From assembly GCA_023213315.1 (NCBI GenBank), contig JAKCPI010000523.1, positions 1-64,000 of the forward strand: DNA of 64,000 bases, read 5' to 3'. A program made the translations under genes and the position numbers. The notes below the pieces were generated by a model. That model searched no databases. It saw only the letters and a program-made list of their open reading frames with translations, and was not told where the DNA came from. Below, piece after piece: positions 1,799-62,151 of this stretch; position 1 is the first letter of the stretch, and every line of letters begins with the position of its first letter. The DNA is from Euborellia annulipes. Its lineage: Eukaryota > Arthropoda > Insecta > Dermaptera > Anisolabididae.

Positions 1799-2049
1799 AG
1801 TAGAACCGATGTAGTTTTGAGTTTTTTTTTTATCTTCTCAAAAATTTGATCAAACGATTTTGATTAAAATTCATAAATCACTTGTTTTTAAAAATATACA
1901 GTATATTAATAAATTTTAATGAAAAATATAAAATCTTTAGGATTTATAAAACTTATTTATTCTCTATATGATTTCCGGAGATATTTAAGTGTCTTGTTCT
2001 GTGTGTTCAAATTCATTTACATTATTTTGTCTACCAATTTACCTAAATA

Positions 2050-2160
2050 ATGGATCTTAGGAAAGTAGATGCGCTGCTAAGAGAATAAAAAAAATTTAAA
2101 TTATTTTGGTCGACATTTCGGATGCCAATCGCGTCCTTCTTCGGGATCACAGGTTGTTAT
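2050..2160 (-). repeat. Hammerhead-element arm (relic)
   Basis: The minus-strand order is helix I, CCGAAGA, short helix II (GGA with TCC), GAAA, TGTC, GACC, then an A/T-rich tail and GCGCATCTACTTTCC. The + strand at 5113-5217 has the same order and the same tail, so both are copies of one hammerhead-bearing family. The first core box has C for the second base (CCGAAGA), so activity is doubtful. Core region 2109-2147. Confidence 0.55.
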
Positions 2161-2343
2161 GAAATACACATATATGTTATCGTGTAATATAGGCTTATAA
2201 AATATTTAAAGAGGCATCTTTTTGTGTGCTTTGTTTTTTTTCTATTTGGAAAAAAAAACATTGAAAAATTAAAAAAAAAAACGCACAGAGAGCTCTTCCC
2301 GTACACAAAAAGATACCACTTTCAATATTGTATAAATATTCTA
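2161..2343. other. AT-rich spacer
   Basis: Nothing recognised; it ends at the 5' TC of the Helitron-like element. Confidence 0.5.
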
Positions 2344-4190: not shown

Positions 4191-4378
4191 TTGATATATT
4201 ACACCATTACATATTACGTAACGTCTTTTTTGACGATTTTCTTGACCCCCCCCCCCCATGTCACAGTTAGTCACATACAAACAAACCCCCTACAAATATT
4301 ATGTATCAACATAGAACTACTCCCTCCCCTTAATAAAATTTCTTATACAAAATTCATATCATTTTACTTTTTTTTTTT

Positions 4379-5050: not shown

Positions 5051-5112
5051 TTTTCTTTTAGCAAATTCCCCCCCCCCCTAACGCTTTACTTAATATGTGG
5101 ACGACCCCTATG

Positions 5113-5217
5113 TGTATTTCATAACAATCTTTGAAGAAGGACGCAATTGGCTACCGAAACGTCGACCAAAAGAATTAAAAAAAATTTTTTACTCTACTGA
5201 CTGCGCATCTACTTTCC
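5113..5217 (+). ncRNA. Hammerhead-element arm with core (relic)
   Basis: The + strand carries TTGAAGA (consensus CTGANGA, first base changed), a weak helix II, then CCGAAACGTCGACC. The tail reads through an A/T tract to CTGACTGCGCATCTACTTTCC. A similar tail follows the hammerhead in the palindrome at 29.8 kb, which links single-arm relics to that family. The first-base change and weak helix II make self-cleavage unlikely. Confidence 0.5.
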
Positions 5218-5267
5218 TTAAGATTTATATATTACAGACTTCTTACTTTTATTAAATAAAGGATAAC

Positions 5268-29620: not shown

Positions 29621-29917
29621 ACAGAAACAGGTATGTAGGCAGCCAGTAAAGAATAAAAACTTTATTTAAATATCGTCGACGTTTCGGGAACGCATCGCTC
29701 TCATCTTCAGGACGATAAATTGTTAATGTTGTTTAGATTGATACATGTAGGTCATACAAAATTATAATATCTAAACAACAATAACAATTTAAAAAGATGG
29801 GAGCGATGCGTTCTCGATACGTCGACGATATTTAAATAAAATTTTTATTCTTTCCTGACTGCCTACATCTACCTGTTCCTGTTGATTATCACTCAGCCAT
29901 TAATTTTTTTTTATTTT
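29621..29917. mobile_element. Palindromic hammerhead element with 13-bp TSD
   Basis: A 297-bp insertion bounded by CTAGTACTCTTTG at 29608-29620 and 29918-29930. Other F1 copies show one uninterrupted CTAGTACTCTTTGG here. The arms are inverted: AATAAAAACTTTATTTAAAT, CGTCGACG, GCATCGCTC on the left, mirrored on the right. The left arm carries a minus-strand hammerhead; the right arm carries a + strand relic (GAAGATGGGAGCGATGCGTT, then GATACGTCGACGAT) with its GAAA changed to GATA. A 13-bp TSD points to retrotransposition, probably by a Penelope-like element. Confidence 0.8.
29671..29717 (-). ncRNA. Hammerhead ribozyme motif
   Basis: Minus strand, 5' to 3': helix I strand TATCGTC, core CTGAAGA, one extra T, helix II GAGA/TCCC (one mismatch; GGGA in the other arm), GAAA, C, GTC, then GACGATA, which closes helix I with 7 perfect pairs. 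All invariant core bases are present. Helix III is only AC/GT, as in hammerheads of Penelope-like elements, which are thought to act best as dimers. The predicted cut is after the C complementary to 29678. Confidence 0.7.
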
Positions 29918-30194
29918 CTAGTACTCTTTGGCTGATTTTATTCAAAAGCTTCGAGTTACGTCTCAGGGGAGTGTCTAACTTAAATATAAAATTTCAATCT
30001 CTTAGCTCTTTACGTTCTTGAGATATTTTGTTCACATACAGACAGACAGACCATGTTTGAAAAAAATAAACACTTTTTTGGACTCAGAGGACCTAAAAAC
30101 GTGTATATTCATGAAAATCTCGACATCGATTTTTTGACATGAATCCAATACTTTCTCTCTCTATATATTAACATTTATAGAGGTAAGAGAAAGT

Positions 30195-37101: not shown

Positions 37102-37265
37102 TAAATTTTTACATCTTGAATTCAAATTGTTCCCTACTGCCGGGAAACTAAATACATGTCGACACAAAAAATCTGGTGTGACAAGCACTGTACACAACTT
37201 TCGATTACCGAAGGTAAGAGAAAGTTGTGTGCTTGCTTGCGCTAAGTCACTATCCAGATTTTTTT
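37102..37265 (+). repeat. F1 element, right part
   Basis: Continuation of the F1 copy from 34599-35133: TAAATTTTTACATCTTGAAT, CTACTGCCGGGAAACTAAAT, then the 3' hairpin, with a changed outer arm (GTCACTATCCAGATTTTT). Confidence 0.88.
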
Positions 37266-43750: not shown

Positions 43751-43833
43751 TGTATTTAAACCATTTGGGATCCGAACCCGCGACCCTTGGTATAGAAGGC
43801 CAGCAAGCTACCAACTAGACCAAGCACGAGGGC
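43751..43833 (-). repeat. SINE A, head part (split copy)
   Basis: ATTTAAACCATTTGGGATCC, GAACCCGCGACCCTTGG and ACCAAGCACGAGGGC: the tRNA-like head on the minus strand. The central palindrome is shortened to one arm. Confidence 0.85.
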
Positions 43834-43888
43834 AACTTTTAATTAAAATGTGGGCTACGATCAAAAATTAATATAAGAAAATAATAAT

Positions 43889-44076
43889 TTTTTTTTTTTT
43901 TTTTTTTTAAACATTCACACTTTTTTCTCATTCACACTCACACTCACACTCACACACACATTCACACAGTCTTTTCGACAACTTAGGCCATTTAAGACTT
44001 TGACGATAACCGTTGTAATATATATTAATCTATTGTGGGTTCAGGCATTTCTATTTAAGCCATCTGGTAACCAAAA
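43889..44076 (-). repeat. SINE A, 5'-truncated at palindrome
   Basis: Poly(T) on +, long CACACT tract, CTTTTCGACAACTTAGGCC, and GGCATTTCTATTTAAGCC, ending at CTGGTAACCA in the palindrome. Confidence 0.85.
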
Positions 44077-44236
44077 ATAATAAATTGGAATTTCCAAATT
44101 CAACATTCAGGGAAAATAGAATGGTTTAAAATGGGAAATTAGATAAAATATTTATAACATCTTGTGCATTTGAGATTAAATCTATTTATTTTCTTATTTT
44201 AATTTTTGATTGTAGCCAACTTTTTAATTAAAGGCT

Positions 44237-44466
44237 GCCCTCGGGCTTGGTGTAGTTGGAAGCGTGCTGGCCTTCTATACCAAGGGTTGCGGGTTCGGAT
44301 CCCAAATGGCTTAAATAAATATGCCTGGACCCCCAATCGAAATGTTAATACCGTACCTGTATCTTTAAATTATTGTATTATATGTCCTAAGTTGCCGAAA
44401 GACTGTGTGTATGTGTGTGTGAGTGTCAATGTGAGTGGGAAAAAAGTGTGTGCTTAAAAAATAATA
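44237..44466 (+). repeat. SINE A, + strand, internal deletion
   Basis: The head GCCCTCGGGCTTGGTGTAGT, AGCGTGCTGG and B box GCGGGTTCGGATCCC is joined directly to one palindrome arm (AAATGGCTTAAATAAATATG), so the GGCAGTCCGATG part is missing, as in the copies at 43751 and 56701. Body, TG-rich tail and A-run follow. Confidence 0.88.
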
Positions 44467-44691
44467 AATAAATTATTTTTACTATTCGTAATTTCTCAGG
44501 CATTTATTAAAACTACTAACAGGTCGACAAACTTTCTTATTCAGGACTATTGTGTTGTCATTAAATACAATTTTTTATAATTTTCGTCTTGAAATATGCC
44601 TGAGTCGTTTAATCAAAACTCCGAATTTGATTGAATTCACTTTGCCTATCTCTTCCAATATATTCATTTCATTCACTTAATTTTTCAACAA

Positions 44692-44844
44692 ATGAAGAAG
44701 GCGGTTTACTCTATTTAGTTGGCGTTGTAGGTGAAGGAAGAAAAAATTTTAAGATTAAAATCTCCGGTAATAATTTTTTCTTAAAATTATTTCCTCTTGC
44801 ATCTCTAACTCCAACTAAATAGAGTAAACCTCATTTGATGAATT
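44692..44844. repeat. Inverted repeat, about 150 bp
   Basis: GGTTTACTCTATTTAGTTGG at 44703 returns as CCAACTAAATAGAGTAAACC at 44811, with AAATGA.../...TCATTT outside and AATTTTAAG inside. A short fold-back MITE of unknown family. Confidence 0.75.
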
Positions 44845-45780
44845 TGGTTCGATCCGTTTCTATAAACATTTAATTTTTTGTAAATTTTTTTTCTTGTTTA
44901 AGATCTACTGTATACCATGTAGACCCCATCATACCTATATACTATTGATTGATAAAATGATAATTGAAATATATTTTCTTCGGGAAGGGATGTGAATTCC
45001 TGACCTCTAGTAGTAATCTACCACTGTACTCAGAGTTTAAAATTTATTATTTCTTTTCTTATTAAATTTTTACCTAAAAAAAATATTCATTTAGTTAAAT
45101 CTTTTTCTCATCAATTCCACCTGTCGATTCGCGGCCAAATAAATGGAATTTCTTTTTTATTAAGAAATTAACGAAACGTGATATATTTTCTAATGTTTTC
45201 TCAGCTCTCCAACAAAAAGGTAATAAATTTTATTTGAAAAAGGAATAAATCAATGTTATAATATTACTAATAGGAATATAAAATTAATTCAAACTTGATC
45301 TCTTATTTAAATTAATTTAAAAACTCGAAATACATACAAATTGATTCCTGTTTAATTTATTAAAAGAAAAAAAAAGGTTAATAATTAAAAAAAGAACATA
45401 ATTAATGACGTTAAATTAAAATTAAAATCAACCTACAAAGTTTATTGCCTCTAAATGAATGAATTAAAACATCTTTTACTATATGAATTAAATTAAATAG
45501 CTTTTTGATAATTTACATCTTATTAAAAATTAGGGCTTATGAAAAAAATAAAAAATTGCTCTTCTCTGATTAATACTTTTTATTTATATTCATTTCGTTC
45601 ATTTTGATCGTTTCCTTGGGTTTATCCCTTTGCGGACTCTGCACTTTTATTTTTAATGTAACAGAGAAAAAGAATCCGAATCGTCTTACCGTCTGATATT
45701 TGAAGTGGGAAAGGAAAAAAGGCTGGCAAATAGAAAAGGAAGAAATGCCAACTCGTGGTCGCCATACACGTACTAAGATC
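44845..45780. other. AT-rich, nothing recognised
   Basis: No feature supported. A vague tRNA-like segment lies near 45000-45045 on the minus strand. Confidence 0.45.
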
Positions 45781-46444
45781 CCACCACGTACCGTTTTCGG
45801 GGGACAGCCCCCTACTTATATCCACCCCTTTTCGTTAATCTTAAATTTGGAGGGATGCAAAGGAATATTTTGGCCTTAACATTTCTTCAGAAGGTCTAGA
45901 GAGGGGAGAAGTTCAAAAACATGAACATTTGGTTCCAAGGGGGAACATTTGGTTGTGAGGGAGGATTTTGTCCCTTAAATTGCAAAAATAAAACATTCAT
46001 AATGATCGATTTTTTCTGTTTTTTCGCAGTTTTTTCACTGCTTTTCTACATATTCCAGCTAACAGATCCTCTTCAGTATTCCTTAAACATCCCTCAACAA
46101 AAACAAGTATATAGGATAAAGAGAGTAGTCAGGTGAAGAGCGACGGGGTCGGTTAGATGGAATATGTAGAAAAGCAGTGAAAAAACTGCGAAAAAAAAAA
46201 CAGAAAAAATCGATAATTTTTAATGATTTTTGTAATTTAATAGACAAAAGCCTCTCCCTCATCTCCCCCTTAAAACCAAATTTTCATGTTTTTGATCTTT
46301 TCCTACTTCTCTAGACCTTTAGAAAATCACCAAGGCTAAAATATTCCTTTTCATCCCCTCCAAATTTAATTCATGGTCCTAAGATTAACGAAAAGGGGTG
46401 GAAATAAGTAGAGGGGCTGTCCCCCGAAAACGATACGTGGAGGG
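45781..46444. mobile_element. Large fold-back element, about 664 bp
   Basis: The arms mirror each other over about 280 bp each. Left order: CACGTACCGTTTTCGGGGGA, AACGAAAAGGGG region, GGTCTAGAGAGG, CAAAAACATGAACATTTGGT, then TCGATTTTTTCTGTTTTTTC and CACTGCTTTTCTACATATTC. The right order is the reverse. The loop is about 90 bp. Arms differ by many substitutions and a tandem copy of GGGGGAACATTTGGTT on the left only. No TSD fixed. Confidence 0.8.
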
Positions 46445-47285
46445 GAAACGGAGGTCATATTTGGATTCAGGAGGTCATTTTACTTAAGAATCTGAAGGAA
46501 TTATCTAGGGGCTAGTAGTGTTATTTACCTAGCATTTCAATTTTCAGCAAATTTATTAATAATTTTTTCTCAAATCAAATTTTTTCTAAATATTATTTTT
46601 ATGCAGTGCTTCTTTTTAGTATTTTCTAAACATACTTTTATTCACTATTATTTTTAAAATGTCTCTTATATGCAATGGAAACATATTCGTCTCCTTGGCA
46701 ATTCAAATATAACTTAATGCCAAGTTGTTAGGCAATCACTCAAGTATAGTGATAAGAAAGCTATTCTATTCCATAGAATGACGACAACTCAAAAAAATTT
46801 TCATTATTTTGGGCAAATGATTTGTTTTTAGTTGATGCGGTAAACCTTGCAAAAAATTCAATTAATAACACGAAATTTTTATTCAAAGTAAAATCACATT
46901 TTTTTTCAACATTCATTTAATTTTAAGGCTTATAATAAAGAGAAAAATAACTGTGGTTATATATATTTTCTTTGCTCAATATAAAAAACCACAAATTCAA
47001 TTTATTAAATAGAAAAATTTCATCAATAAAGGTTACCAAATGTTATTGAAATAGTTTTTTTTTATCACAATGCGGGAACAACCAACCCGGATGTACAGTG
47101 CGGTTCTGAAAAAGCTAAACCTAAATATTCTGAGCCAAGCTTTTATTTTTACATTAATATTTCTGCATTCTATAATTTTATAAGTTAATTTTTTTCATAG
47201 TTTTAATCCGAAAAGTTTTGTAAGAAATAAGTAAGAAAATGTCCATATAAACAATTACATAGTACTACAAATCCTAGTAGAAAAA
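46445..47285. other. AT-rich, nothing recognised
   Basis: No feature supported. Confidence 0.5.
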
Positions 47286-47977
47286 TCTGGTGTGATTGAT
47301 CGCATAGAAGACAACTTTCCCTAACCTTTGGTAAGAGAAAGTTGTGTTCTGTGTTTGGCACACCAGATTTTTTGTCTCGACACATATTTAGTTTCCGACA
47401 GAACAGTACATTTGAATTCAAGATATAAAATTTATAAACATGGGAGAATATTTATATTTTGTTACCATTATTATTATCATTATTATTATTATGTGTTACA
47501 ATTATTTCTCCTATCTTTCCTATGAAGTACAATAGTAAAGTAGTCTTCAAAAGATTTCAGGGGCAAAATGAGAATATACATTTTAAAGAGCATCTAAAAA
47601 ATATTTGATTTTTGAATTTTAATCAAAATCGTTGATTTTGAATCGGTGAATTTTGAAAAAAAAAAAAAAAAAAAATCAGTAAAGTACTAGTACTCTTTGG
47701 CCGATTTTGATTAAAAGGTTATTTTCGCACCCTTCGGGGGTGCCTAACTTAAATATAAAATTTAAACCTCTTAGCTCAATTCCTTCTTGCTTTAAATTGA
47801 ACACACCCAGAAAGACAGACAGACCATGTCACGAAAAACCCCTTTTTTGAATTCAGGGGACCTCAATACTTGTATATCCACCAAAATCCCGACATCAAAT
47901 TTTCGACATAAATCCAATACCGTACTTTCTATATATATGTATACCCCTTAACATATACTATATAGGTAAGAGGAAGT
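47286..47977 (-). repeat. F1 element, full copy
   Basis: Minus-strand F1 from 3' hairpin (TCTGGTGTGATTGATCGCAT) to 5' hairpin (TATAGGTAAGAGGAAGT). It has an ATTATTATTATC-type expansion at 47467-47492 in place of the usual GCCATGGTAACC part, and an A-run at 47657-47677. Confidence 0.85.
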
Positions 47978-48668
47978 AAAAAGATTTGATGAAAATTGTG
48001 CATTTTTTTCAATTTTTTTTTCTTTTCTCTTAATTATTTTGAACAGCTAATCAGGGAAGTCCGGTATTTAAAAAAAAGAGGGTCCTTCTCTGATTGATTC
48101 GGTGAGTCGAGTGCAGGAAATGACATGTAAATAAATCAGCGGAGCTTGAAACGAACCCTTGGAACCCAATGACCAGAAGTCAGAGAGACAGACAGGATGC
48201 TGGACACGCCACGCCCGTGATTTGTGATTTAGTTCACACGTTCCATGCCACTCCACACCGATACGTTCCTCAAGACCAGGTGCCAGACATGCAAATGCGA
48301 AGAGATTCACACGGGGACAGCCAAGAACATGAAGGGCATCACATCCCTTTTCCTTCCTCTCTCATTCTACTGACTATCAATCGCCAAGTGGGTCTTTGAT
48401 AATTTCTTTTGACACACACCCACTCATAGAGAACCTTTTTTTAATATAAGTAAATAATTATTATTGTTAATGACTCCTTAAGTGTCCCTTTGATCAGATC
48501 TGAGAACGAATAATTTGAGAATCTTTTAATCTATAACAGTTTAAAAAATTATTTGCCAACCGGTTCTTTTAATTTCCTTAAAATTATTTGTCTTATCTCA
48601 AATGATGATTGTTTTAATTAAAATAAGACAAAAGTATACTTTTGGCTTATTATAGTCGATCCGTTGTA
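47978..48668. other. GC-richer island of unknown nature
   Basis: Bases 48060-48410 are GC-richer than their flanks and repeat-free. They hold open frames on both strands (76 codons +, 80 codons -), with dense CAGACATGCAAATGCGAAGA-like sequence. An ATGCAAAT octamer occurs at 48288-48295. It could be a conserved element or exon. The rest is AT-rich. Confidence 0.3.
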
Positions 48669-48793
48669 TTTTTTTTTTTAAACACACTTTTTCTCATTCA
48701 CACTCACACTCACACACACATTCAAACAATCTTTTCGGCAACTTAGGCCATATAAGGCCTTACGATAACCATTATATTAATTATATACTGTAT
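48669..48793 (-). repeat. SINE A, 3' part (split copy)
   Basis: Poly(T), CACACT tract, CTTTTCGGCAACTTAGGCCA and TACGATAACC to the TSD ATTATATACTGTAT. Continues at 49184-49309. Confidence 0.9.
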
Positions 48794-48880
48794 TTGAAGG
48801 AGGTATATAGCTGAGTGTTGATAATCAAATAGGAAGAATAAATGAGCAAACAGCTAGTTATATTTCAATTTATTAAAAAA

Positions 48881-48930
48881 CCAGGGCCGACTTTTCGGTC
48901 ACATATGGGACCATCTTCAGGACCTGGTTA
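48881..48930 (-). ncRNA. Hammerhead ribozyme motif, left arm
   Basis: Minus strand, 5' to 3': AACCAGG(T)C, core CTGAAGA, an extra T, helix II GGTC/GACC with loop CCATATGT, GAAA, A, GTC, then GGCCCTGGTT. Helix I has at least 8 pairs. The second pair of helix III is lost (A opposite G, where the other arm has C opposite G), so this copy is probably weaker. Predicted cut after the C complementary to 48889. Confidence 0.7.
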
Positions 48931-49065
48931 ATGTCTGAAAATACATATCATCATTCACTCTCTGTCCATGGTATGATAACAATAAAATTTGAGGCATAAT
49001 CATGATTAATCTAATTGTGAATGCCCAATATAACTTGGCGAGGATTATATGTATTTTCAGACATT

Positions 49066-49116
49066 AACCTGGCCCTGAAGAAGGTCCCATATTTGACCGA
49101 AACGTCGGTCCTGGTT
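49066..49116 (+). ncRNA. Hammerhead ribozyme motif, right arm
   Basis: + strand: helix I strand AACCTGGCC, core CTGAAGA (49075-49081), one A, helix II GGTC (49083-49086) and GACC (49095-49098) around CCATATTT, GAAA (49099-49102), CGTC (49103-49106), then GGTCCTGGTT closing helix I with about 8 pairs and one bulge. All invariant bases of the CTGANGA...GAAA...TH consensus are present. Helix III is AC/GT without a loop, as in hammerheads of Penelope-like elements. Predicted cut after C49106. Activity is not shown by sequence alone. Confidence 0.75.
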
Positions 49117-49183
49117 TGTTAATAAATTAAAATATAACTAGCTGCTTGCTCATTTATTCTTCCCATTTGATTATATACTGTAT

Positions 49184-49309
49184 ATAGGCCTATAGTATTT
49201 GGGATCCAGGCATATTTAAGCCATTTGGTATCCAAATCCCTGAGATCCGAATCCGCGACCCTTGGTATACAAGACCAGCACGCTAACCCCTTCGCCAAAC
49301 TCGCGGGCT
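49184..49309 (-). repeat. SINE A, head part (split copy)
   Basis: GGGATCCAGGCATATTTAAG, one palindrome arm, then the tRNA-like head on the minus strand: CGCGGATTCGGATCTC and GGCGAAGGGGTTAGCGTGCT. Completes the SINE begun at 48669. Confidence 0.88.
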
Positions 49310-50649
49310 ATCACTTGTATTATAATACAACTGATTGACTCATAATAATAAAAAAATTTAAAATTTAATTCTATTCTGGTAAATATCAACAACAAATCTG
49401 CTCTCCATACTTAGGTTTAGCTAAAGCGCGGCAAAAGCTCCGGATTGGTGACCTCGAGCAATTAGCGTGTGGAGCGTATTTCAAAAATATATAAATTCAA
49501 CTCCTAAAAGGCATCTGTAGCCGAAAAGGATTTAAAAATTAAATTAACTTTACCTGTCCAACCTACGGTTGATGGGCAAAGTTAAAAAGATTTAGCTATT
49601 TTCCTTTATATATTCTTTATATATTTCAATAATATAAGCTTAAAGAATATTTACACGCTCCATCCAAAAAAATCATTGAATTATTAAACCCCTGATCGGT
49701 GGTGAAAAACAGGAGGTAAATAATTAATAAAAAATGTTTAATAAAGTGTATTTAATAACTTTTATTATCTTTTTAGATATTAACAACACAAAAGGATGAA
49801 AAAAATTTGAAGTATCATTTCATGGATATTTTACTCGATTAATACGGTTTAAATTTAGCACAGTATACATTAACGGTGTAAACGCGGTGGTATTACAGTA
49901 AAAGAGAAAAGAACTACTTATACGTGCATAACGAAAGGCAACTAAATAAAAAAAGATCAAAATCTATCTTATACCAAGATATAACTCTAAAAAAAAGAAA
50001 TAATTGAAATAAAAAGAAAAAAATGAGGTTAAAATTATTTAAAATTTGAATAATATACTGTATATATTGAATTGAAATTCGTCACTAATTTCAATTTCAA
50101 AATAAAATTATTGACTGGGCTCTTGCTCTGAATGAGGCCAAAAAATTCCAGGCCATATCTATGACAAGGTCTTCATTTTTTTTTCTGTTTCATTCCACAA
50201 ATGCCAACCAACTTATTTAATATTGTACTATGAGGAATTTAGTCTTATTATAATATATTGTTTAAATTTTATCCCTATTCGTTTGTCAGGAGATGTTCGT
50301 TCAAATGTCGCTCCTGGCGATATTAATTATGATATATTAAACAATTAGATCAATAAGGATGAATTTATAACAGATTTCGGCTCTAGTAATTGGACATTAT
50401 CTTTAAATTACTCAATTTAATCTATTTATCTTGCGGTTGGGTTGTCTGTAAAGAAATCGTGAAATTTATTAAAATTAGTCATTTAGAAAATATAATAAAT
50501 TTTAATTAAGGTGAGAGTAACTAGTCATACGGATCTGTTTATTACTTCTGTCTGGAGGGTAAAATATGTGTTTCAAATTATTTGTTATGGACCTATGAAA
50601 TTTCTAATAGAATTTTTTATTTCGCCTCTATTAGCCAAAGGGATAAGTT
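49310..50649. other. AT-rich, degenerate SINE scrap
   Basis: Bases 49437-49545 have GATTGGTGACCTCGAGCAAT and GGCATCTGTAGCCGAAAAGG, a decayed SINE B/A-like body. Nothing else recognised. Confidence 0.4.
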
Positions 50650-50785
50650 TAAAACCCTGAGTTGAAGACAACTCGAATTCAAATCCACCTCATGGCAAAA
50701 AAATTATCCAACTCTAGTATTATTCCCATGAAAGTTACACCTCAGAGTGACCTCAACGTGTCAGTTCTGACACTAATGACTGAAT
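50650..50785 (-). repeat. Repeat R3, copy 3
   Basis: Reverse-oriented R3: CCTGAGTTGAAGACAACTCG, CCACCTCATGGCAAAAAAAT, ATTATTCCCATGAAAGTTAC, GTCAGTTCTGACACTAATG. It matches 20991-21140 and 17757-17888. Confidence 0.65.
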
Positions 50786-50889
50786 AGAATATGACTGAAG
50801 AGAGGGAGAGTCCTCATAATGTTTAGTTTCCGACCTACTGATAAATAAGATTTAAACTTTCGACCGTTGGTTCTCGTTGAAACATTTTG

Positions 50890-51035
50890 TAAATTAAAAT
50901 TAAATATACAAATTAAACACTAGGTTATTTCGACAAGGATGTCGTCGGAATACGTATCAAGTGTTAATTTTTTAATTAATAAAACCTTTGAAACAAATTA
51001 TCTAGTGTTTAATTTGTATATTTAATTTTAATTTA
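50890..51035. repeat. Perfect 34-bp inverted repeat
   Basis: The arm TAAATTAAAATTAAATATAC continuing AAATTAAACACTAG (50890-50923) returns exactly as its reverse complement at 51002-51035. The spacer is 78 bp. It sits a hundred bases from R3 copy 3. Class unknown. Confidence 0.8.
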
Positions 51036-51135
51036 CTGATAAATAGTCTCTTGGATGCATAAATTTTTGATTTTTGACCCATGACTGAGAGGTTAGAGAT
51101 ATTGAAAAATATCAATATTGATAATCTTAAAACCA

Positions 51136-51320
51136 CGCGGCGCGGGTTCGGATTCCAGGCAGTCCGATAAATATTTATTTAAATCATTTGGATACCAAAT
51201 GGTGTATATAAATGTGTCTGGACCCCCATTTAATTCAATCCCTATTTATTCATTTAAATAATGCTATTGTTAAAGTCTTTATAGCCTAAAATGCCGAAAA
51301 GACTTAAATAAAAATAAAAA
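51136..51320 (+). repeat. SINE A, 5'-truncated within head
   Basis: B box GCGGGTTCGGATTCCAGGCA, GTCCGATAAATATT, full palindrome, GTCTGGACCCCCATT, TGCCGAAAAGACTT and A-rich tail. The TG-rich segment is replaced by an A-rich end. Confidence 0.8.
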
Positions 51321-51413
51321 TGGATGTCGTTTTCAAAATTTTGAAATAGTGCTAAAGGGGATGTGATCATAAAAGATATACCAGTAATTAATAATAGAAA
51401 AGTGGAACACATT

Positions 51414-52124
51414 TAGTGTATATAAAATTAAAGAAAGTTATACTCCTTTTAAAACTATTCAAAAGTGAAAAAGTTTTTTACCTAATCCTTTTGTCTTCGT
51501 TTATTTAAATATGTGGATAAAACAATATATTATTTTGTTTATATGTGAACCAATCTTAAGAAGAACCTCCGACGCAATTAATCGAAAAATTTTGTGTTCC
51601 AACATTAAGGAACTACGACATTTGTCGTATATAGAGACTACAAACTCTTTAAGATTAACCCCAGAGTAGGTTCTTTAAGATCAACGATGGACGAGCCTTT
51701 TATAAGGATCTGGTTTAGTCATATCTCCTAAAAAAATATTGACTTTATGGATGAAAATGTATTTGCTGCTAGCATTGTGAGATTCTATTCTGGAGTTAAT
51801 CATAGACTAATTATAGCATCCACTCCCGATGCTGGAAGGTAGACAATCCAAATGACTTATTCAAGAATTGATTTTTCGATTAATTGTTCCAGTGAGCTCC
51901 TTAAGACTTAAGATAAATACATTTTGTATTTCTTTATTAAGTCCATTTGCTTCCGGCTAAATGTGCAAAAAAAAAAAAAAATTAATTAAATAATACATTA
52001 TATTAATATGAACAAAGCAATAATAATTTAGAAAAGTGAAAACAAAAGGATTAGGTAAAACTTTTTTCACTCTTGAGTAACAGTTTCTAAAAGAGAATAA
52101 CTTTCTTTAGTTTTATATACACTG
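51414..52124. mobile_element. TIR element, about 710 bp
   Basis: TIRs of about 85 bp: TAGTGTATATAAAATTAAAG on the left, CAGTGTATATAAAACTAAAG on the right (reverse complement). Both continue to ACCTAATCCTTTTGT. TA follows the right end; the left flank is TT. The interior has no frame. Likely Tc1/mariner-like by the CAGT start. Confidence 0.65.
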
Positions 52125-53029
52125 TATGTATGTGCACATCTCAGTTTCTCTTATTCATTATTAAAATTATTAAATATTAAAAATTGTAATTTAAATTATA
52201 ACATTACGTTAATTTATTTTTTAAATTTCTGAGTTTTTTTTTTTTTTTAATGATTTAAACAAGGACATCTGAAGGTATCTGAAATCTGTTCCTGTTTACT
52301 AAAAAGGAAATAAATTTACAGTAATATAAACACGTATATATGTAACATATAATAAAAATTTTATTATTATCGTATTAAAAATTTATTTTAAATAATTATC
52401 CACTTATCTATTTTCTAAGTGATAATTATAATAACACTAATACCTAAATTGGTTTTTATATTTGCCGTGAGAGGACGGACAGACAATCAGGTGATTTTTT
52501 TACGAGCCTTTTGTCGGCCAATCTGTCCCTCACTTTAACAAGGCATCGGCAGGATTGAGATTTTCTAAAGAGAGAGAGAGCTCTTTTTTGGGTACACATG
52601 TTCAATAATTATATTATTTCGTGATGAGTCCAATGAATTTTATCCTGGGACAATAGCAACTAAACATAGGCGGCTTCTCTTTTGCGCCCTATAATTTTCG
52701 TGGAGGGTCGATCGCCCTTCGGCTGTCAAATTTGGGATAATTTCTACCTATTTGGCTCAATGACGAAGGCTGATATTTTCATATCACCTCATTCATTCAC
52801 GCATTCAAACACAAAGATCCTTATTAAATGTCAAAAAGCTAGCGACTTTCACACGTTTTGTAAAAAAAAAAAATTGATTATTAGGTTGTGTGGGATAATG
52901 CATCACCACAAAAGAAATTTGGGTAGACACCAAAAAATCAACCATAATTTTTAACCGTAAAAATTTGCATGATCAATAAAAGATTATTGCAAAATAATTA
53001 GTTACTGAAAAAATTTTAAATTAGATATA
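52125..53029. other. AT-rich; 90-codon frame without family
   Basis: A 90-codon + open stretch at 52682-52954 begins in CCCTATAATTTTCGTGGAGG. No motif is recognised and no splice or promoter context is seen. Otherwise AT-rich. Confidence 0.35.
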
Positions 53030-54011
53030 GAGGTAAAGGTGGTAATATGAGCCCTGTAGGTATTATGAGCCCCCAATATATCTCGTCATAGAGTTCACAC
53101 AATCTAATGGGGATTGATGGAAACACTGTGTTCCGTTCTTTTTTAGGCCTCTAGAGAGCTTTGGTTCAGTTGTTGATGATAGATGGTGGATAAATCAGGT
53201 GTTTGTGTTTTCTTCTACTAAAAAACTTTGAAAGGTACCTATTTAGCCCTTAATTATGATTATTATTCGATTGCATTTACTCTAATAGGCTACGCAATCT
53301 AATAGAGTAGGTTTTAAGCTTTGATTTAATGTAGGTGATAATTAATTTAGACAGTAACAAAGATAAAATATGCTTTGAGGAAATTCAATATGGCTATGTC
53401 GGTAATGTGAGCCCCCTTCTGTGCCTGGTATATGAGCCCCACTTTTTGATGGTCCGTCAATACCGAAAAGTCCGTTTTGGAAATGCCAGTGGGAGTTGAT
53501 AATCCCGGAGATGAGCATACGCCCTGTAAGTTTTGTGAAGGACTTTAGTCTGCCAATCATCAAGGAGAACTGTGGATATAGTGCCTGATGTGTGAAATGT
53601 GGGCGCACAATGACTGTGCTGGGACTGAAAAAGATGTTTATATTTGTGACTTTTGCAGATCATAAAATATTTTCTGTTTTCCAACTTATTTACACTAATA
53701 TAGTTTTGTAATTAACAAAATACAATTTTCATAAAGGATATTTGTATTACTAACCTCTTTTTAACACTCTTTTTCATGTATTTACTCTAGGGGCTCATAA
53801 TACCAGCACAGAAAATTTTTTCAACAAAACGAACTTTTTTGATTTTTTGTTATTATTTCACTTTCTGTGTATTTAATCGACTGCATACTTTTTAAATATA
53901 TTCATCAATTGTTATAGTTGAAGTTCAACACAAATAATTTAGCAAAAATTATTTAAAAAAATTTATTATAACAAAAAAGAAACTAGGGGCTCATAATACC
54001 ACCTTTACCTC
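53030..54011 (+). mobile_element. pogo/Tigger-like element, deleted, TA TSD
   Basis: TIR GAGGTAAAGGTGGTAATATG (left) and its reverse complement with one mismatch (right), TA at 53028-53029 and 54012-54013. TIR-like GGTAATGTGAGCCCCC and GGGGCTCATAATACC copies also occur inside. It carries a PHD-finger relic on + (53498-53665), the known C-terminal part of many DDE transposases of the pogo group in invertebrates. The DDE domain itself is deleted, so it is non-autonomous. Confidence 0.78.
53498..53665 (+). pseudogene. Transposase C-terminal PHD-finger relic
   Basis: One frame reads DNPGDEHTPCKFCEGL, stop, SANHQGELWI, stop, CLMCEMWAHNDCAGTEKD, VYICDFCRS and a terminal TAA. Cysteine and histidine spacing is C-x2-C, C-x2-C, H-x2-C, C-x2-C, the C4HC3 pattern of a PHD finger. 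The two internal stops are TAG (53546, 53579). The context between GGGGCTCAT-type repeats and a TA-flanked TIR element supports a transposase origin. Not functional. Confidence 0.75.
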
Positions 54012-54409
54012 TACCTATGTTAAAATTTTGATACTAAACAATAGAAATATTCCATCAAAAAAATGAAATTTATCTCAATTTCTACGATGGAGGATTAATT
54101 AAAATTTTTAATCTAGAAAATGTGACAAGAATGCAAGTCAGCCATTTGGGTAATCTTAATCGAATAAAACTCTAAAGGCGGATACATACGTAACTGCAAA
54201 CTTGACAAGCATGCATGTGCAATCTTTTTGTACAAGCAAACTGTAGCGTCTATAGGAGAATTATGCGGAAGCATGTTAATTGTGGAAGCCGCTTGATACT
54301 CGATTGAGTTTTAATCATACACAAACATATTTGCGCAAGCAAAACTCTCCGCCATTTTATAGGCGTCTTGACATTTGATATTTATTTAATATATATTAAT
54401 TCATTTAAA

Positions 54410-54582
54410 CCCGGGAGCCGTGGCTCAGAGAGATGACACCAGCCTCTCGCGCCGGAGTCCCGGGTTCGCTTCCCGTCCCAAGCGAGAAAAATTTATTTCA
54501 TTTGATTTGACTACAAATCATTTGAAATAAATAGGGATGGGGCCTAAATGGCCTTAGTTGTCGAAAAAGTCTTAAAAAAAAA
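54410..54582 (+). repeat. SINE B, copy 2, with TSD
   Basis: tRNA-like head with A box GTGGCTCAGAGAGATGACAC and B box GGGTTCGCTTCCC, palindromic TTTCA...TGAAA body, GGGGCCTAAATGGCC, GTCGAAAAAGTCTT and A-run. TSD TCATTTAAA at 54401-54409 and 54583-54591. It is the best-preserved B copy. Confidence 0.88.
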
Positions 54583-54605
54583 TCATTTAAAATTTCAATA
54601 AAATA

Positions 54606-54760
54606 TTTTTTTTTTTTTTTTTTTTTAAACACACTTTTTTCTCATTCACTCTCACATTCACACACAGTCTTTTCGGCAACTTAGGCCATTTAAGACTTTT
54701 ACGATAACCGTTATTTAATAATATATATTTATTTGGGGTCCAGGCATTCTTATTTAAGCA
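54606..54760 (-). repeat. SINE A, 5'-truncated at palindrome
   Basis: Poly(T) on +, CACACT tract, CTTTTCGGCAACTTAGGCC, ACGATAACCG and CAGGCATTCTTATTTAAGC; it stops there, at the first palindrome arm. Confidence 0.85.
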
Positions 54761-54964
54761 ATAAAATATTAATATTTATTGTATCTCTGTTTAAAGCAAG
54801 TGATTATCATCGAATAAATAACCTTCCGAGTTTGACATTTTAGGTTAATTTTCGGCATAAGCTGTTTCTTGCATAAGCATGCTTGTGCCGAGTGGTGACG
54901 GAAGGGGATTTGTGCATGCTGGTACAAAAAGATTGCACATGCCTGCTTAAAGTCTCCTTTAGAG

Positions 54965-56465
54965 AGTTAGAGGCTACCCTACTGATTGACTTCCTCTCCT
55001 GTCACATTTTCTGATTCGCGAACAGCCACCCACCTTTATTTTCGTCATAATCTAGACATTATTTAATTTATTTACAATAATTAAGCCCCTAGGGAACAGT
55101 TGCCTCTTGTAGTAGGGACCATGGGTTCGCTCAATCGATGCAATTTTTTTTTTTTAATTAAATTGACTAAGCCTATCATTCAAAAAATATTTATAATTAA
55201 TCCTGTTTTACTTTTTCGGGCAGAGAAAGAGCTCATACTTCTTTATCTAAGAATCTGAGCCTGCAATTTATTAACCTAATTTAAAGATGAGCATTATCTA
55301 ATTAAAGATAATGAAAAAGTACTATATTCTCAAAGATTTTCTGAAGAAAATGAGAAAAATCCATCGAAACCTCATGCTTTCAATTTCACCTGAATATGGT
55401 GACATTTCATATTTCTTTTTATAAAATAAATTTCCAAGTTATTGAAATCGTTATCACTCAGAATGGTTCATTGAATAAGCAAAAACTTATTTGATATTCA
55501 ACTTTTATGAATTTTAAATAAATCTGATTGGATTCATTGATTCAAGTTTACATAATTGTTTTCCTTTTTCCTTTATTTTATTGTATAAATAGGCTCTATG
55601 AATAATACTTTTTAAACATTATATAATAATCATAAAAATTTTATTTAAGGTTCCCATGATATTTTGTTGTCATTAAATAATTCTACAAATTAAATATTAC
55701 AAACAATCAGAGTTATAGATAAGTCAATAGAAATATGTTAATGACGCCAGAGGGAATAAATTATTAATGCAAATTTTATAACAGGTAAAAAAGGGTGAGA
55801 AAAAGGGAAACTGAAATTAATGAATTATTTAAAAAGGAAATATTAAAATTCAGATTTTTTTTCTAGATTCAAATCCAAATAACATCTGTCGATTGGAAAA
55901 TAATATCTAAATTTCATTATGTTATTGTACTATTAGTATATCAATTTTCAATAAGAAATAATAATAAAAATTAATTAGCGATTTAATTTATTCAATTGGA
56001 ACGGAATGAGCCGTAAAAGGTAAAAATTTATGCAAAAAATATTTTTTTTTAGATTAGTTTTTATTAATTAATTATTTTTTTAAGTAGTTTTTTTTTATTC
56101 CTCCGAAGTAGCCTAGATGACTAGTGAAGCGTTAAGAATTGATTAAGAAAGACCTTGTGATTAAGTTTTAATTCGAGAAATTTTGTATATTTTACCTTCA
56201 AATTGCTTAAAGCAAAACAATCATGTCGCTGAGGTTTTATTTTTTTATATTTTTTATGAAATAGGCCTATGTCCTAAAAAAATTTATCTTTAATGTAAAA
56301 GCTTAAAATTATTTTTACAATATTTCAATACAGAATTTTCATTTTGCAAAAATGATTTATTATTACCTAACACGATAATAGATATTCTTAATTGTCCATC
56401 AAGATTGCGTCTGATTGGCAGATTTCTCCTGATTTTTTAAAAGCAATCTGTTTAAATTCAAATAG
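54965..56465. other. AT-rich, nothing recognised
   Basis: No feature supported. Confidence 0.55.
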
Positions 56466-56540
56466 CCGAATGCGATGCTATGATCTTGTGGTAGGGCATG
56501 CTAAGTACAAATCGGCAGATTCATGTTTCGCATCCGACTG
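56466..56540 (+). repeat. SINE C (tRNA-like)
   Basis: GATGCTATGATCTTGTGGTA, GGGCATGCTAAG and GCAGATTCATGTTTCGCATC in tRNA box order; related to 11829-11910 and 59.67-59.77 kb. Confidence 0.5.
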
Positions 56541-56700
56541 TTTGATTTAGTAAATACATATTAATTAATATGAATTTTCTTCACGGACCTAAACGTGATG
56601 TAGGCCCTATATATTTTCTTATTCATCTATAAAAATTTATTAACAGGCGCCATTCCTTACTAAGGAAAATTTGTAAATATAAATAAACTGGCTTTTGAGT

Positions 56701-56942
56701 TTTTTTTTTTTCTTTTGAACACTCACACTTTTTTCCAAATCACACTCACATACACACACACATACACCCACTCTTTTCGGCAAATCAGGTCATTTAAGAC
56801 TTTAAACGATAACCGTTATTAGGAAAATATATATGTTACTATATTGGGGTCCAGACATTCTTATTTAAGCCATTTGGGATCCGAACCCTCGACCCTTGGT
56901 ATGCAAGGCAGGCGCGCTACCAACTACGCCAAGCTCGAGGGC
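56701..56942 (-). repeat. SINE A, internally deleted, TSD
   Basis: Minus-strand copy with head, one palindrome arm, body, TG tract and poly(A). GGCTTTTGAGTT (56690-56701) and GGCTTTTAAGTT (56943-56954) form a TSD with one mismatch. Shares the head-palindrome deletion with 44237 and 43751. Confidence 0.9.
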
Positions 56943-57222
56943 GGCTTTTAAGTTATTAATATAAATGTGTTGAGTCTAATCGCGTCGACAGCTGCCCTTT
57001 TCTTTTTACACAGTGATGTCATTACATAAGAACATTTAAATTTTTTTGGGCTTTTGAATATGTGACCACAAACTAACTCAAGAAGTCATTGGAGGGCGGC
57101 GCTAAGTAGAGGGGATGCAGCGTTTCTTAAAGCTTTGAGGAACGAGAATCGAAATTGTTTTAAAGAAGTTTCACTTCAAAAACAAGGAATTTCTTCGCCG
57201 ATTAATTAATTGTCAATCTATA
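56943..57222. other. Spacer, nothing recognised
   Basis: Mixed composition; no frame and no repeat. Confidence 0.5.
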
Positions 57223-57469
57223 CACGATGTTTCTCAAATAGACTGCTAAACTCTATCATGGCTAAACTCAGCAAGTACCATGTCAAATTCCATTTTCAAA
57301 CCATTCTGTAGATAAAAAAAATTTAGTGAAAAAACAAAAAATAAAATCAAAATGGCGGCTAGCAGAAAAACGAATCATTTTTGGACCTAGGCTATAAGAA
57401 ACTTTTTTCTTTATTTGAATATAAGAAAACCATTCCAGAAGTTTAACAGCCTATTTCAGAAACACCCTG
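57223..57469. mobile_element. TA-flanked MITE (Tc1/mariner-like), 247 bp
   Basis: Ends CACGATGTTTCTCAAATAG and CTATTTCAGAAACACCCTG, inverted with a few mismatches. TA on both sides (57221-57222, 57470-57471). The inside has TCAAAATGGCGGCTAGCAG. CAGGGTGTTTC ends are common among arthropod mariner-type elements (family knowledge). Confidence 0.75.
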
Positions 57470-57736
57470 TATATCTATATATTTTTTTTTATAAATACAG
57501 ATATTACATGTGGTAAATTAATCTAATTTTTTTCTTTTATAATTAAAATGAATACTAAATATTTTATTATTTTTTGACATTTCGTGTTTGTACTGATAAA
57601 TTTAAAAAAAAATCTCTAACCTTTAAAAATATCTGATTGAATGAATTTTTATGAGTTTTTTTTTTTTTGTTTCTAATCGCCTGTTTTTAATTTCTTCTAA
57701 AATATTTAATTAAATATTGAATAATATATATTTTTT
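57470..57736. other. AT-rich spacer
   Basis: Nothing recognised. Confidence 0.5.
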
Positions 57737-57882
57737 ACTTTCTCTTACCTATGTATATATGTAATATATATATAGAGAGAAAGTATTGGATTCATGTCAA
57801 AATTCGATGTCGAGATTTTGATGGATCTTCACGTTTTGAGGTCCCCTGAATCCAAAAACTGGTTTTCGCGACATGGTCTGTC

Positions 57883-57916
<34 letters not shown>

Positions 57917-58422
57917 GGTGGGTGGGTGGGTGTGTGTTCAATTTTAAGCATGAAGGAATTGAGCTAGGAGGTTGAAATTTTATAATTAAGTTAAACACCC
58001 CCGGGACCGGAAAAATAAGCTTTTAATCGAAATCGGCCAAAGAGTACTAGTACTTTACTGATGTACTTTTTCAGTTTTTTTCGATTTTCTCAAAATTTGC
58101 TCCAACGATTTTTTTTAAAATTCAAAAAACAATTATTTTTTAGATGCTCTTTCAAATGTATATTCTCATTTTGCGATTGAAATCTTCTGAAGACCACTTT
58201 ACTCTTGTATTTCATAGGGAAGATAGGAGAAATGGTTGCCATGGTAACAAAATATAAATATTTTCCCATACTTATAAATTTTACATCTGAATTCATGTTC
58301 CATACTGTCGGGAACTAAATACATGTCGACACAAAAATCTGGTGTGACAAGCACAGAACACAACTTTCGATTACCGAAGGTAAGAGAAAGTTGTGTGCTG
58401 TGCGCCAGTCACACCAGATTTT
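57737..58422 (+). repeat. F1 element, full copy
   Basis: Both end hairpins are present, a long (TG)n then (GGGTG)n tract at 57884-57936, and the continuous CATACTTATAAATTTTACAT that serves as the empty-site reference for the Helitron-like insertion at 35134. Confidence 0.92.
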
Positions 58423-59805: not shown

Positions 59806-60038
59806 AACAAAAGTTAACAAAATATGATTTGTAATTATCTAATTGCAAGAAAAGAACAAAATTATTTTTAAATATATTTTTTTTGAGCTTGGTGAATTGG
59901 GATTAATTAGGTGAATTACCTGAATTAGAGTATCGAATACATCGATACATTCTTAATATTGAAACGAAAGGTTCGATGTTCAGATACCATTTAATTTTCA
60001 AAAAAATATCGATTGAATATGATTGCAATGGGAAAAGA

Positions 60039-60242
60039 AAGGCAGCCAGCAGAAATAAAAAAATGTTTATATCATTTCATCAACGTTTCGGGAACACATT
60101 GCTCCCATCTTCAGGAAGAGATAATTATCACACAGTACCAAGTAAACCATTAATATATACTGCGACAATTATTTTGTTCTGAAGATGCGTTCCAGAAACG
60201 TCGGCGAAATAATATAAAAATTATTTTATTTTTCGTGGCTGC
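60039..60242. mobile_element. Palindromic hammerhead element, third copy
   Basis: Arms: GGCAGCCAGCAGAAATAAAA, TCAACGTTTCGGGAAC on the left; CCAGAAACGTCGGCGA, TATTTTTCGTGGCTGC on the right. The left arm holds a minus-strand hammerhead; the right arm holds CTGAAGATGCGTTCCAGAAA, in which half of helix II is deleted. No TSD could be read. Confidence 0.7.
60077..60119 (-). ncRNA. Hammerhead ribozyme motif
   Basis: Minus strand: TCTTC, core CTGAAGA, one T, helix II GGGA/TCCC around a 9-10-base loop, GAAA, C, GTT, then GATGA. Helix I has 4 of 5 pairs near the core. The cleavage-site base is T, which the UH rule allows. Core complete. Confidence 0.6.
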
Positions 60243-62022
60243 AATATGCATGCATCCCTACTCCTGGAAGCTCAAAAATTTTTTTGTTCTTATTTTCTAA
60301 TGCTTGTAAAAAAAAGTTGTGCAAAATTTTCAAATAAATTATATTATTTTTCTATAATGTCAAATTAATTATAAATTTTGAAAATAAATGCAAAAATATT
60401 TTTCGTTTCCAATTAGGGCTCGAGTTTTTTAAATTTCTTTTTAAGGAATTTCTTCCTTAAAAATTAATTATAAACACAAACTTCGGATTCATAATGGCTT
60501 AGTTTAAAATTGAATTTTATCGGTCTTCTAAAATTCAAATAATACCTGGTATTCTAAGAGTTAATGCAGGTGTAAAAAAAACCTTTTATCATTTCCTGAG
60601 ATATCTAAAAAATTTTTTTATTTAACATTTGTTCAATCTTTAAAACAACACACTCTGTTTGACCAATCAGGTTGTAAGTTAATATTGGCATCCCCCTTCC
60701 TTTGCTTATAAGCACAGGTGTGTGTTTACAAGCGCATCTCCTTTGGTTTGTTCCTGATAAATGCTGATAAATTTCTGATAAAAAAAATTCAATCGCAAAA
60801 GGAAGGAAAGCCACGACTCTGTCTAATCTCGGAAGGAACTGACTTCCAGGCTAGCGGTTTTACACGGTTTCGCCATTAGATTTATTATTGTATTATAAAT
60901 TAAATAGTTAACTGTTATATTTTAAATAAAAAAAAAGAAGTTTAAATGGAGAGAGGTTCTTAAAACTTTTTTTCACCCATCTTGTGAGTGCGTGGATAGT
61001 AACTACGAGTTTCATGAGCTAAAGCTGACATGTATACCGTTCAATTTAAATCAGTTTTCACCTTTTTGCCATCAATTGTCGGGGCGAGCAAGTGACCTAC
61101 TTGTTTCTTCTCTCTTTGTTAAAATGTCTATATAAAATGTTTATATAAAATTTCTAAGGATAAAAGTTTGATCGATTTTCTCGAAAAAATTTCAAAATAT
61201 TTACTTAAAATTTTTTTGTTTTGTTGCTTTTCCACTTAAAACTTTTGTCTAAATATTTTCTTAAATCAGCTCAATTAATTAACAAAGAATAATAAAATTT
61301 TTATTACATTTTTCCAATTTATAAGACTACATATTTCAGAGCAACGTATAAACATTTCTCTTAATAACCTTATATTATAATAATTAGCTGAATTTTCTGT
61401 TTCCTGGATTAAAAACAATGAACCATATAAATTGAAGGTAGGCAGATTCCTGGCGGACACGCGTAATGCATTTAAGCACTAATTTCAGCTACCAACGCTA
61501 TTTTCATTTTCTTTTATTCTCATAGAAAAAGTCCCCACTTCTCCTTTTTAATCTTCTATTTCTTATATTTATGGAAGAATTAATTCTAGAGATTTTCATT
61601 TTCATTCAAGCTGCATACAAGAATTTAATTAAAATTCATACTAATAAAATAATTAAGTATACAATTTTAAATTAATATTTACATATTTTATTAAATATTT
61701 ATTTTATATAAAAAAAAAAAAAAATTTAAGACCTAATTACAAAATGAAAAATTCTTGAACTTTTTATTTTTAGCCTTATAAGGAGAGAAAAAGAGTTAAT
61801 AATTAATAATTAATTTAACAAAAAATTATATTTCTTTCTCTTTCTAATAATTAATGATATAATTAAGTTGTAAGTTTATTTATTTATTTATTTAATTCAA
61901 ATGAGGACGGAGGTGAAGCTTCTTTGAGCAAAAACTGTTATTCAATAATAATAATTCTGTGGTTGAGGCGGCTTCAAAAAAATATTTCAAGACAAAAATA
62001 AGCCTGTATTTACACAGTTTTT
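60243..62022. other. AT-rich, nothing firm
   Basis: Bases 60640-60860 are GC-richer with GACCAATCAGG and GGAAGGAACTGACTTCC, and resemble part of repeat X in composition only. Short frames, no gene. Confidence 0.45.
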
Positions 62023-62151
62023 ACTTTCTCTTACCTATGTATATATGTAATATATATATAGAGAGAAAGTAGGCTATTGGATTCATGTCAAAAATTCGAT
62101 ATCGAGATTTTGATGGATCTTCACGTTTTGAGGTCCCCTGAATCTAAAAAA
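62023..62151 (+). repeat. F1 element, left part (host of nested F1)
   Basis: 5' hairpin and body to CCCTGAATCTAAAAAA. It continues at 62811 (AAAAAGTGGTTTTCGCG), so a second F1 copy interrupts this one. Confidence 0.9.

Follow-up and report, generated by a model that had tools for sequence, protein, structure and literature searches.

A head-to-head pair of hammerhead-bearing units in Euborellia annulipes, likely formed anew by two-ended copying of a Penelope-related RNA

Results

Layout of the insertion and its relatives in the window

We analyzed a window of 64,000 nucleotides (69% AT), the features of which are collected in Table 1. The element considered here, E1, is an insert with inverted arms bounded by a perfect 14-bp target site duplication (TSD). 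The original prediction for this DNA had described such an insertion, with a hammerhead core on each arm reading outward on opposite strands, and in these respects it was accurate. The arms (48821-48952 and 49043-49174) are 132 nt each and 92% complementary, with a spacer of 90 nt, and they are unequal, the left having 32 additional nucleotides at its outer end and the right 90 at its inner end. A search with the 90-nt centre alone identified it as the 5' part of a unit of about 217 nt that comprises a fixed 5' end, a hammerhead and an optional 32-nt 3' tail. The right unit starts at the family's fixed 5' end, ATTCACTCTCTGTCC, and the left unit has a few nucleotides of junction filler at its inner end. 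The arms are therefore placed head-to-head with their 3' ends outward, and not tail-to-tail as had been stated. Transcripts of the unit are predicted to begin near ATTCACTC (48953).

Table 1. Positions of the elements and hammerhead-type cores in the 64,000-nt window
Feature	Position	Strand	Remarks
E1 insert	48794..49169		376 bp
E1 TSD, left copy	48780..48793	none	ATTATATACTGTAT, identical to right copy
E1 TSD, right copy	49170..49183	none	ATTATATACTGTAT, perfect match
E1 left unit	48794..48952	minus	5'-truncated copy, 3' end outward (probe coordinates 91-249)
E1 optional 3' tail, 32 nt	48794..48825	minus	left arm only
E1 right unit	48953..49169	plus	complete 217-nt unit, without tail
E1 right hammerhead-type core	49075..49106	plus	CTGAAGA..GAAACGTC; C3 at 49075, C17 at 49106
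E1 left hammerhead-type core	48889..48920	minus	CTGAAGA..GAAAAGTC; C3 at 48920, C17 at 48889
E2, second palindromic element	29621..29917	both	E1-type layout, 13-bp TSD
E2 TSD	29608-29620 and 29918-29930	none	CTAGTACTCTTTG
E2 complete untailed unit	about 29621-29769	minus	
E2 truncated tailed unit	about 29770-29917	plus	
E2 hammerhead-type core	29678..29710	minus	pattern match
E2 plus-strand hammerhead arm	29794-29823	plus	decayed
E3, third head-to-head element	60032..60250	both	ends approximate
E3 left hammerhead-type core	60082..60114	minus	
E3 right hammerhead-type core	60179..60202	plus	helix II shortened
Unit A, related family	2042..2172	minus	hammerhead-like core 2112-2144, U4 -> C
Unit B, unit A's family	5109..5233	plus	faces opposite way to A

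The flanks of E1 belong to a dispersed repeat. Ten other copies of this repeat lack the insert and run through from one flank to the other, with the join falling in an AT-rich, poorly aligning stretch. The claim of a clean insertion in a SINE thus stands for the dispersed host repeat; its assignment as a tRNA-type SINE was made by eye only, and ARAGORN found no tRNA in 43800-57500. At 376 bp (at most 125 codons), E1 is too short for an open reading frame (ORF) encoding reverse transcriptase (RT) and GIY-YIG domains, and because this ORF is absent we file E1 as a likely non-autonomous relative of Penelope-like elements (PLEs) rather than as a PLE. This agrees with the original classification as non-autonomous and probably Penelope-related; the clean TSD and the presence of a hammerhead-type core on each strand are likewise upheld.

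E2 also lies in a host repeat, and in nine other copies of that repeat the flanks meet at a single TSD. No clear TSD was found for E3, nor for units A and B when read as a single interrupted palindrome; the 3 kb between A and B consist largely of repeats. Decayed hammerheads are present in unit B, in G23566 and in the plus arm of E2. A profile built from eight arms in the window recovered its own training arms at E <1e-22, as it must by construction, and nothing else better than 0.0059. Four ORFs in the window had no Pfam match.

A hammerhead fold without a closed helix III

The core pattern matches four times in the window, compared with 0.02 matches expected. Both arms of E1 contain the conserved core (CUGANGA / GAAA / UH), with the stem III position changed to AG in the left one, and the core is kept in 43 of the 50 arms of the 25 elements in the E1 set described below. 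Across 11 cores, from the window and from the autonomous element L182, 91.7% of helix I and II cells are paired, and the covariation score is 0.616, compared with 0.211 +- 0.051 after shuffling (0/500) and at most 0.152 after sliding, some of these cores being of the same family and not all independent. Swapping helix I strands among six arms weakened the pairing, with 10 of 720 permutations as good as the true one. In these alignments, the hammerhead fold is maintained by compensatory change in helices I and II across families.

These cores have a single nucleotide between A9 and helix II. The two sides of helix III follow each other directly (GAAA-CG-UC), without a loop nucleotide, so that a monomer cannot form this helix. 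The helix III position reads ACGU, and AUAU in L182; both are self-complementary, which suggests that helix III could pair only between two molecules. Hammerhead cleavage, if any, is thus predicted to need dimerised RNA or protein. Small Penelope-associated hammerheads reportedly cleave as dimers, according to work from 2017. The distance from ATG to the cut is 26 nt in the left arm of E1 (E1L) and 27 nt in E2a and E3L, and AAG replaces ATG in the right arm (E1R).

Folding predictions bear on what the palindrome itself might do. The full E1 transcript is predicted to form a hairpin of -190 kcal/mol, compared with -87 kcal/mol when the ribozyme is held apart, and on this model it would not be expected to act as a ribozyme; single-unit or dimerised RNA, or RNA with protein, might do so, if anything does. 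A transcript spanning E1 from end to end is consequently unlikely to be the self-cleaving RNA that was originally proposed for either strand. The covariance search suggested at the same time gave no match to the Rfam hammerhead models at gathering score in the window, and none up to E = 10 in 48700-49300. This search and the proposed cleavage assay are weak tests here, because the Rfam models miss the variant and because the one relative examined biochemically cleaves only with protein, in the portion of PMC11167929 used here. Rfam microRNA matches to the palindromes were below gathering score and reflect hairpins.

Our own covariance model, applied to 70 loci (228,675 bases), found 160 hammerhead-like sites. 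Among bystander sites, defined as those outside the element through which their locus was retrieved, all eight neighbouring pairs less than 400 nt apart face outward (L105, L112, L115, L118, L129, L169, L171 and L182), the pair in L182 having belonged to the training set of the model. Ten neighbour relations within the same distance join a bystander to a main element, five of them inward (L103, L115, L129, L171, L182) and five on one strand (L169, L173, L178 and two in L125); we read these ten as neighbouring separate insertions. Two sites in L102 lie 510 nt apart and face inward. In L125, a palindromic element is nested within another outward-facing hammerhead pair.

Copies in the genome

Copy searches on the window's own 903-Mb assembly confirmed dozens of further insertions. 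The E1 query returned 2534 unconfirmed first-look candidates, of which 40 were scored (some of them duplicates); each of the 40 alignments covers most of the palindrome (query start 1-53, end 354-376), and the 39 places other than E1 itself are 83-93% identical to it. The E2 query returned 2402 candidates, and among the 40 scored some have only one E2 half. Thirty loci from each query were then reduced to distinct insertions: the E1 set to 27 by removal of the identical L107, L108 and L114, and to 25 by removal of L094 and L109; the E2 set to 21 and, after removal of L135, to 20. A third set of 30 loci, found with the 90-nt centre of E1 as query, came down to 25 without L152 (E1 itself), L168, L170, L174 and L180. 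Later removals in each set had flanks 96-99% identical to those of a kept locus, or an identical TSD. Pairs could not be read in L113, L175, L177 and L178, and L171 was read separately, with 266 nt between its two units.

Twelve of the 25 distinct insertions in the centre set look like single units, and one-ended insertion therefore also occurs. Six of the twelve have a candidate TSD of 9-13 bp, L158 is broken, and both tailed and untailed single units are seen.

Candidate relatives outside this genome were rejected. A strict pattern had no match in viral contigs, a looser one had eight viral matches and another matched 83 bacterial or archaeal genome contigs; these look like chance, as the pattern scan found no head-to-head pair in the 91 loci. 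A few of them matched an nhmmer profile, mainly over the core (best E 2.5e-4), and three of the 13 to which the covariance model was applied scored 24-28 bits. Taken by itself, this model does not tell a distant chance motif from a decayed copy.

Target duplications and inner junctions

TSDs are perfect in 24 of the 25 distinct insertions of the E1 set (9-16 bp, 91% AT; 22 are at least 12 bp and 12 is the commonest length), the exception being L113, which has none. The 20 distinct insertions of the E2 set include 14 with perfect TSDs (12-19 bp, 86% AT), three with one mismatch and three without. TSDs were chosen as the closest match in a span of a few bases around the aligned ends, which leaves room for chance among the shortest (9-11 bp); none of 3000 random breakpoints placed in these loci, with similar slack, produced a perfect 12-mer. 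At 9-19 bp across sets, and mostly 12-14 bp, TSD length is not fixed.

The 5' end of the complete unit is constant, whereas across 31 distinct insertions (32 rows, less the duplicate L094) its truncated partner has 26 different starting points, as read from alignment ends that are accurate to within a few nucleotides. Inner junctions often contain a few nucleotides of filler, and in L095, L113 and L116 they hold a short piece of the unit's 5' end in inverse orientation. The two units of L184 (G000:C16886:400-1250), which lie head-to-head within a 13-bp TSD identified by eye, are separated by about 200 nt of unrelated DNA, with snap-back pieces on both sides. Because inner junctions mostly differ between insertions, the sequences indicate that palindromes arise anew with each insertion and are not inherited.

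Both arms come from one source

Arms within an element differ by a distance of 0.035, compared with 0.059-0.065 between elements whichever side is taken, and no alignment column separates left from right arms (27 rows in each case). At nine common polymorphic sites, partners mismatch in 10 of 200 within-element comparisons, compared with 80.6 after shuffling of partners (0/5000 as few). The arms of six of the 25 elements are identical over the 101-119 sites compared. Of the within-element differences that do exist, 96 of 104 are not common polymorphisms, as expected for later mutation; the arms of E1 itself have 10 differences in 120 sites, and since none is a shared polymorphism we read them in the same way. 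By this sequence evidence, the two arms of one element derive from one source.

One tail per pair

Exactly one tail is present in 53 of the 55 readable distinct pairs. This count combines all 24 readable pairs of the E1 set (25 distinct insertions), 19 of 20 in the E2 set, where L126 has two tails and no TSD, nine of ten in the centre set, where L154 has no tail and the rest are three unreadable and the 12 single insertions, and one further pair in L184. L115 was counted as one-tailed from its coordinates, a neighbouring piece having placed it under 'other'. If the two ends chose their starts independently and with identical odds, at most half of all pairs would have one tail, and the nine or more of ten in the centre set have p <=0.011. 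Only this set is free of tail bias, its query having no tail; the E1 and E2 sets come from tailed whole-element queries that under-sample tail-less pairs, and their smaller probabilities are not to be taken at face value.

With duplicates removed and L115 added, the tail is on the truncated copy and absent from the complete one in 14 distinct pairs of the E1 set and five of the centre set, 19 together, and the reverse holds in seven and one. Relative to the asymmetric centre, the tail is on one side in 20 rows and on the other in 7 of the same 27 (two duplicates, a few mixed centres). The tail measures 32 nt in E1 and about 37 nt in E2, and by coordinates the units end 63 and 95 nt past the hammerhead cut in E1, and 57 and 94 nt past it in E2.

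A tandem array, L183 (G000:C25443:16050-16800), consists of three direct 153-nt repeats, each of unit and target duplication, beside a head-to-head pair that is one-tailed by eye, with a shortened tail, and was left out of the counts. We considered and rejected a circular-RNA origin for the array, as each repeat includes the target duplication (by eye); it is probably a DNA duplication that followed insertion.

Autonomous relatives

The original prediction called for a search for full-length parents with a GIY-YIG/RT ORF. Such elements do exist in the genome, several of them with the E1-type layout, though none carrying the E1 unit was found by searching it. GIY-YIG (PF01541) has at least 118 matches among 150 scored of 710 candidates, with open frames of up to 852 aa, and L182 has an 851-aa ORF with RVT_1 and GIY-YIG. 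This element has a hammerhead-like core, 668-nt direct repeats and, on the left, an inverted copy of its 3' part that reaches the start of the contig. The autonomous ORF had no match in the PDB. Adjacent GIY-YIG pairs within 6 kb on one contig number 11, and by eye nine face outward, two lie on one strand and none faces inward; with a chance of 0.25, nine outward has a probability of 1.3e-4 if the pairs are independent insertions, which they need not be. A further pair, on C12946, is 9.3 kb apart and faces inward.

Discussion

In regard to the origin of E1, we consider it likely (probability about 0.7) that its two head-to-head copies of a unit of about 217 nt arose here de novo: a Penelope-type enzyme would have cut the target on both strands, and each end would have primed copying of the same RNA, from starts 32 nt apart. 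In this scheme a Penelope-like enzyme would move the protein-less unit, and staggered cuts in the target would leave 3' overhangs. One cDNA would start at the inner site and lack the tail while the other would start at the outer site and include it, such that the outer ends of the units may represent RT start sites, and the cDNA ends would be joined in the middle, sometimes after a short snap-back. Two-ended priming on one RNA would give a head-to-head pair flanked by a TSD, with a single tail and arms of common origin, and its inner junction would fall wherever the two cDNAs stop, which is the pattern observed. As to why the tail should be single, the chances seem to us evenly balanced that two RTs, one per strand of the break, run along a single RNA from adjacent starts and cannot share a start, leaving one tail per palindrome. 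Our preference for one RNA molecule over two RNAs from one source copy is drawn from the one-tail rule, the sequences giving no distinction between them.

The biochemistry of a relative bears on this proposal. In the parts of PMC11167929 drawn on here, purified PAc from Anolis cuts both target strands and extends them, with a preference for AT-rich DNA containing an ATT motif, and it begins copying at two positions inside the RNA whose interval corresponds to the 30-40-bp tail. Its hammerhead cuts 26 bp after the start codon and one start lies 111-118 bp after that codon; arithmetic on these figures puts that start 85-92 nt beyond the cut and, given the tail length, the second one about 45-62 nt beyond it, on an assumption as to which of the two is outermost. 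The same source also counts against a two-ended, two-site model, in that no strand-dependent choice of start site was seen for PAc in bulk, and its hammerhead, which needs the protein for cleavage, is dispensable for insertion in vitro. We also list against the model the one-ended insertions, the failure to find an autonomous element with the E1 unit, the inward pair on C12946, the decayed hammerheads and the U4 -> C change in units A and B; L154 and L126 run counter to the one-tail rule.

Alternatively, a single cDNA or antisense RNA may fold back and copy itself into an inverted second arm, as proposed in 2013 for the A. vaga Penelope (PMC3846280, in the passages used here). Self-priming would produce the head-to-head layout and arms of one source, and would be in keeping with the inverted 5'-end scraps at the junctions of L095, L113 and L116 and the snap-back pieces at both inner ends of L184. 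Yet a copied arm cannot gain a 32-nt tail that its template lacks, and the model fails for the 19 pairs with the tail on the truncated copy only, because there the complete copy has no tail to copy; moreover, a self-copied arm would continue into its primer and not stop at the other start site. We regard self-priming as unlikely. Somewhat more doubtful is a non-autonomous palindrome whose transcript is re-inserted whole, which would account for the 40 scored places that align over most of E1, 39 of them being elsewhere in the genome. The scatter of truncation points, the occurrence of the tail on either side of the asymmetric centre and the grouping of arms by element rather than by side all speak against it. 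The distinct lineage breeding as a palindrome that was originally envisaged is not upheld, given these truncation points and the single source of the arms.

A cDNA begun on sense RNA could also break off and continue on antisense RNA of that locus. Such a template jump would yield one complete and one truncated arm, and bidirectional pLTR promoters are raised in the excerpted text of PMC3846280, but it requires antisense RNA 5' ends at both RT start sites and leaves the near-universal single tail unexplained, which makes it a decidedly improbable account. We give least credence of all to a foldback or MITE-type DNA transposon with terminal repeats that are merely hammerhead-like. Although inverted repeats, TSDs, many copies and the lack of an ORF are all features of such elements, the tail on one side makes the ends here asymmetric, TSD length ranges over 9-19 bp and inner junctions are variable. 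In addition, single units are inserted with candidate TSDs of their own, and paired hammerhead positions covary from family to family.

Inverted pLTRs, tails and hammerheads of PLEs are already known. Within the cited sections of PMC11167929 (PAc) and PMC3846280 (Pen2a, the A. vaga Penelope), Penelope/Poseidon-type PLEs have, as here, a hammerhead with stems I and II at the start of the pLTR/ORF, an ATG-to-cut distance (26 nt in PAc, 26-27 here), an optional tail (30-40 bp, compared with 32 and about 37 here), AT-rich targets, short TSDs and inverted head-to-head pLTRs; the pLTRs of Pen2a are mostly head-to-head, with a 31-bp tail on one and a TSD. Unlike these PLEs, the E1 family has no ORF and only about 217 nt per unit, and unlike in these papers, as far as the cited sections extend, the one-tail pairs and single-source arms are here quantified and ascribed to two-ended copying.

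Retrozymes carry direct tandem hammerhead repeats. This layout is absent in E1, E2 and the readable pairs, all of which are inverted, and L183 is the one tandem array encountered. Like animal and plant retrozymes, as outlined in the extracts of PMC7229834 and PMC4918200 used here, the E1 family comprises small non-autonomous retroelements with hammerheads; it differs from them in its inverted pairing of units, a helix III without a loop and no sign of circular-RNA templates. In LINE-1 twin priming, a single RNA is reverse-transcribed from primers at both target ends, which gives an inversion. The proposed two-ended priming on one RNA resembles this process and its inverted product, except that both ends would use one of two fixed starts near the RNA 3' end, whereas the second LINE-1 primer lands at an arbitrary internal place.

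Our findings fit into a broader question, as how PLEs complete integration and why inverted ends are so frequent are left open in the sections of PMC11167929 and PMC3846280 cited here. A many-copy, protein-less family is useful in this respect, since the ends, junctions, tails and arm haplotypes of dozens of products in one genome set integration models against each other. If two RTs do run along a single RNA in this way, PLE inverted repeats would ordinarily arise from two-ended copying and not from self-priming. The scheme also offers a simple explanation for a tail that is 'optionally' present on one arm. It is also of interest that a hammerhead fold is kept by covariation when helix III seems possible only between two molecules. 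A quantified one-tail rule, single-source arms and varying junctions in a protein-less family did not turn up in searches of open-access papers.

Other repeats in the window

The window contains further repeated DNA. A repeated element occurs at 2333-4196 and 35132-37111 on opposite strands, about 94% identical between copies, and includes a 99-bp tandem array of 7-8 units that is adjoined by a near-palindromic stretch (2343-2621, 36820-37100). A dispersed repeat is found at 4373-5051, 24317-24959, 57731-58423, 62146-62815 and other places, with about 90% identity between several copies, and E2 is inserted into one copy of this family. Hammerhead-like relics at 1239-1271 and 23567-23600 (minus) have a strong helix II and a damaged core. 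The longest inverted repeat reported in the window (62270-62651 / 62844-63225, with 382-nt arms of 94% identity) overlaps copies of the dispersed repeat.
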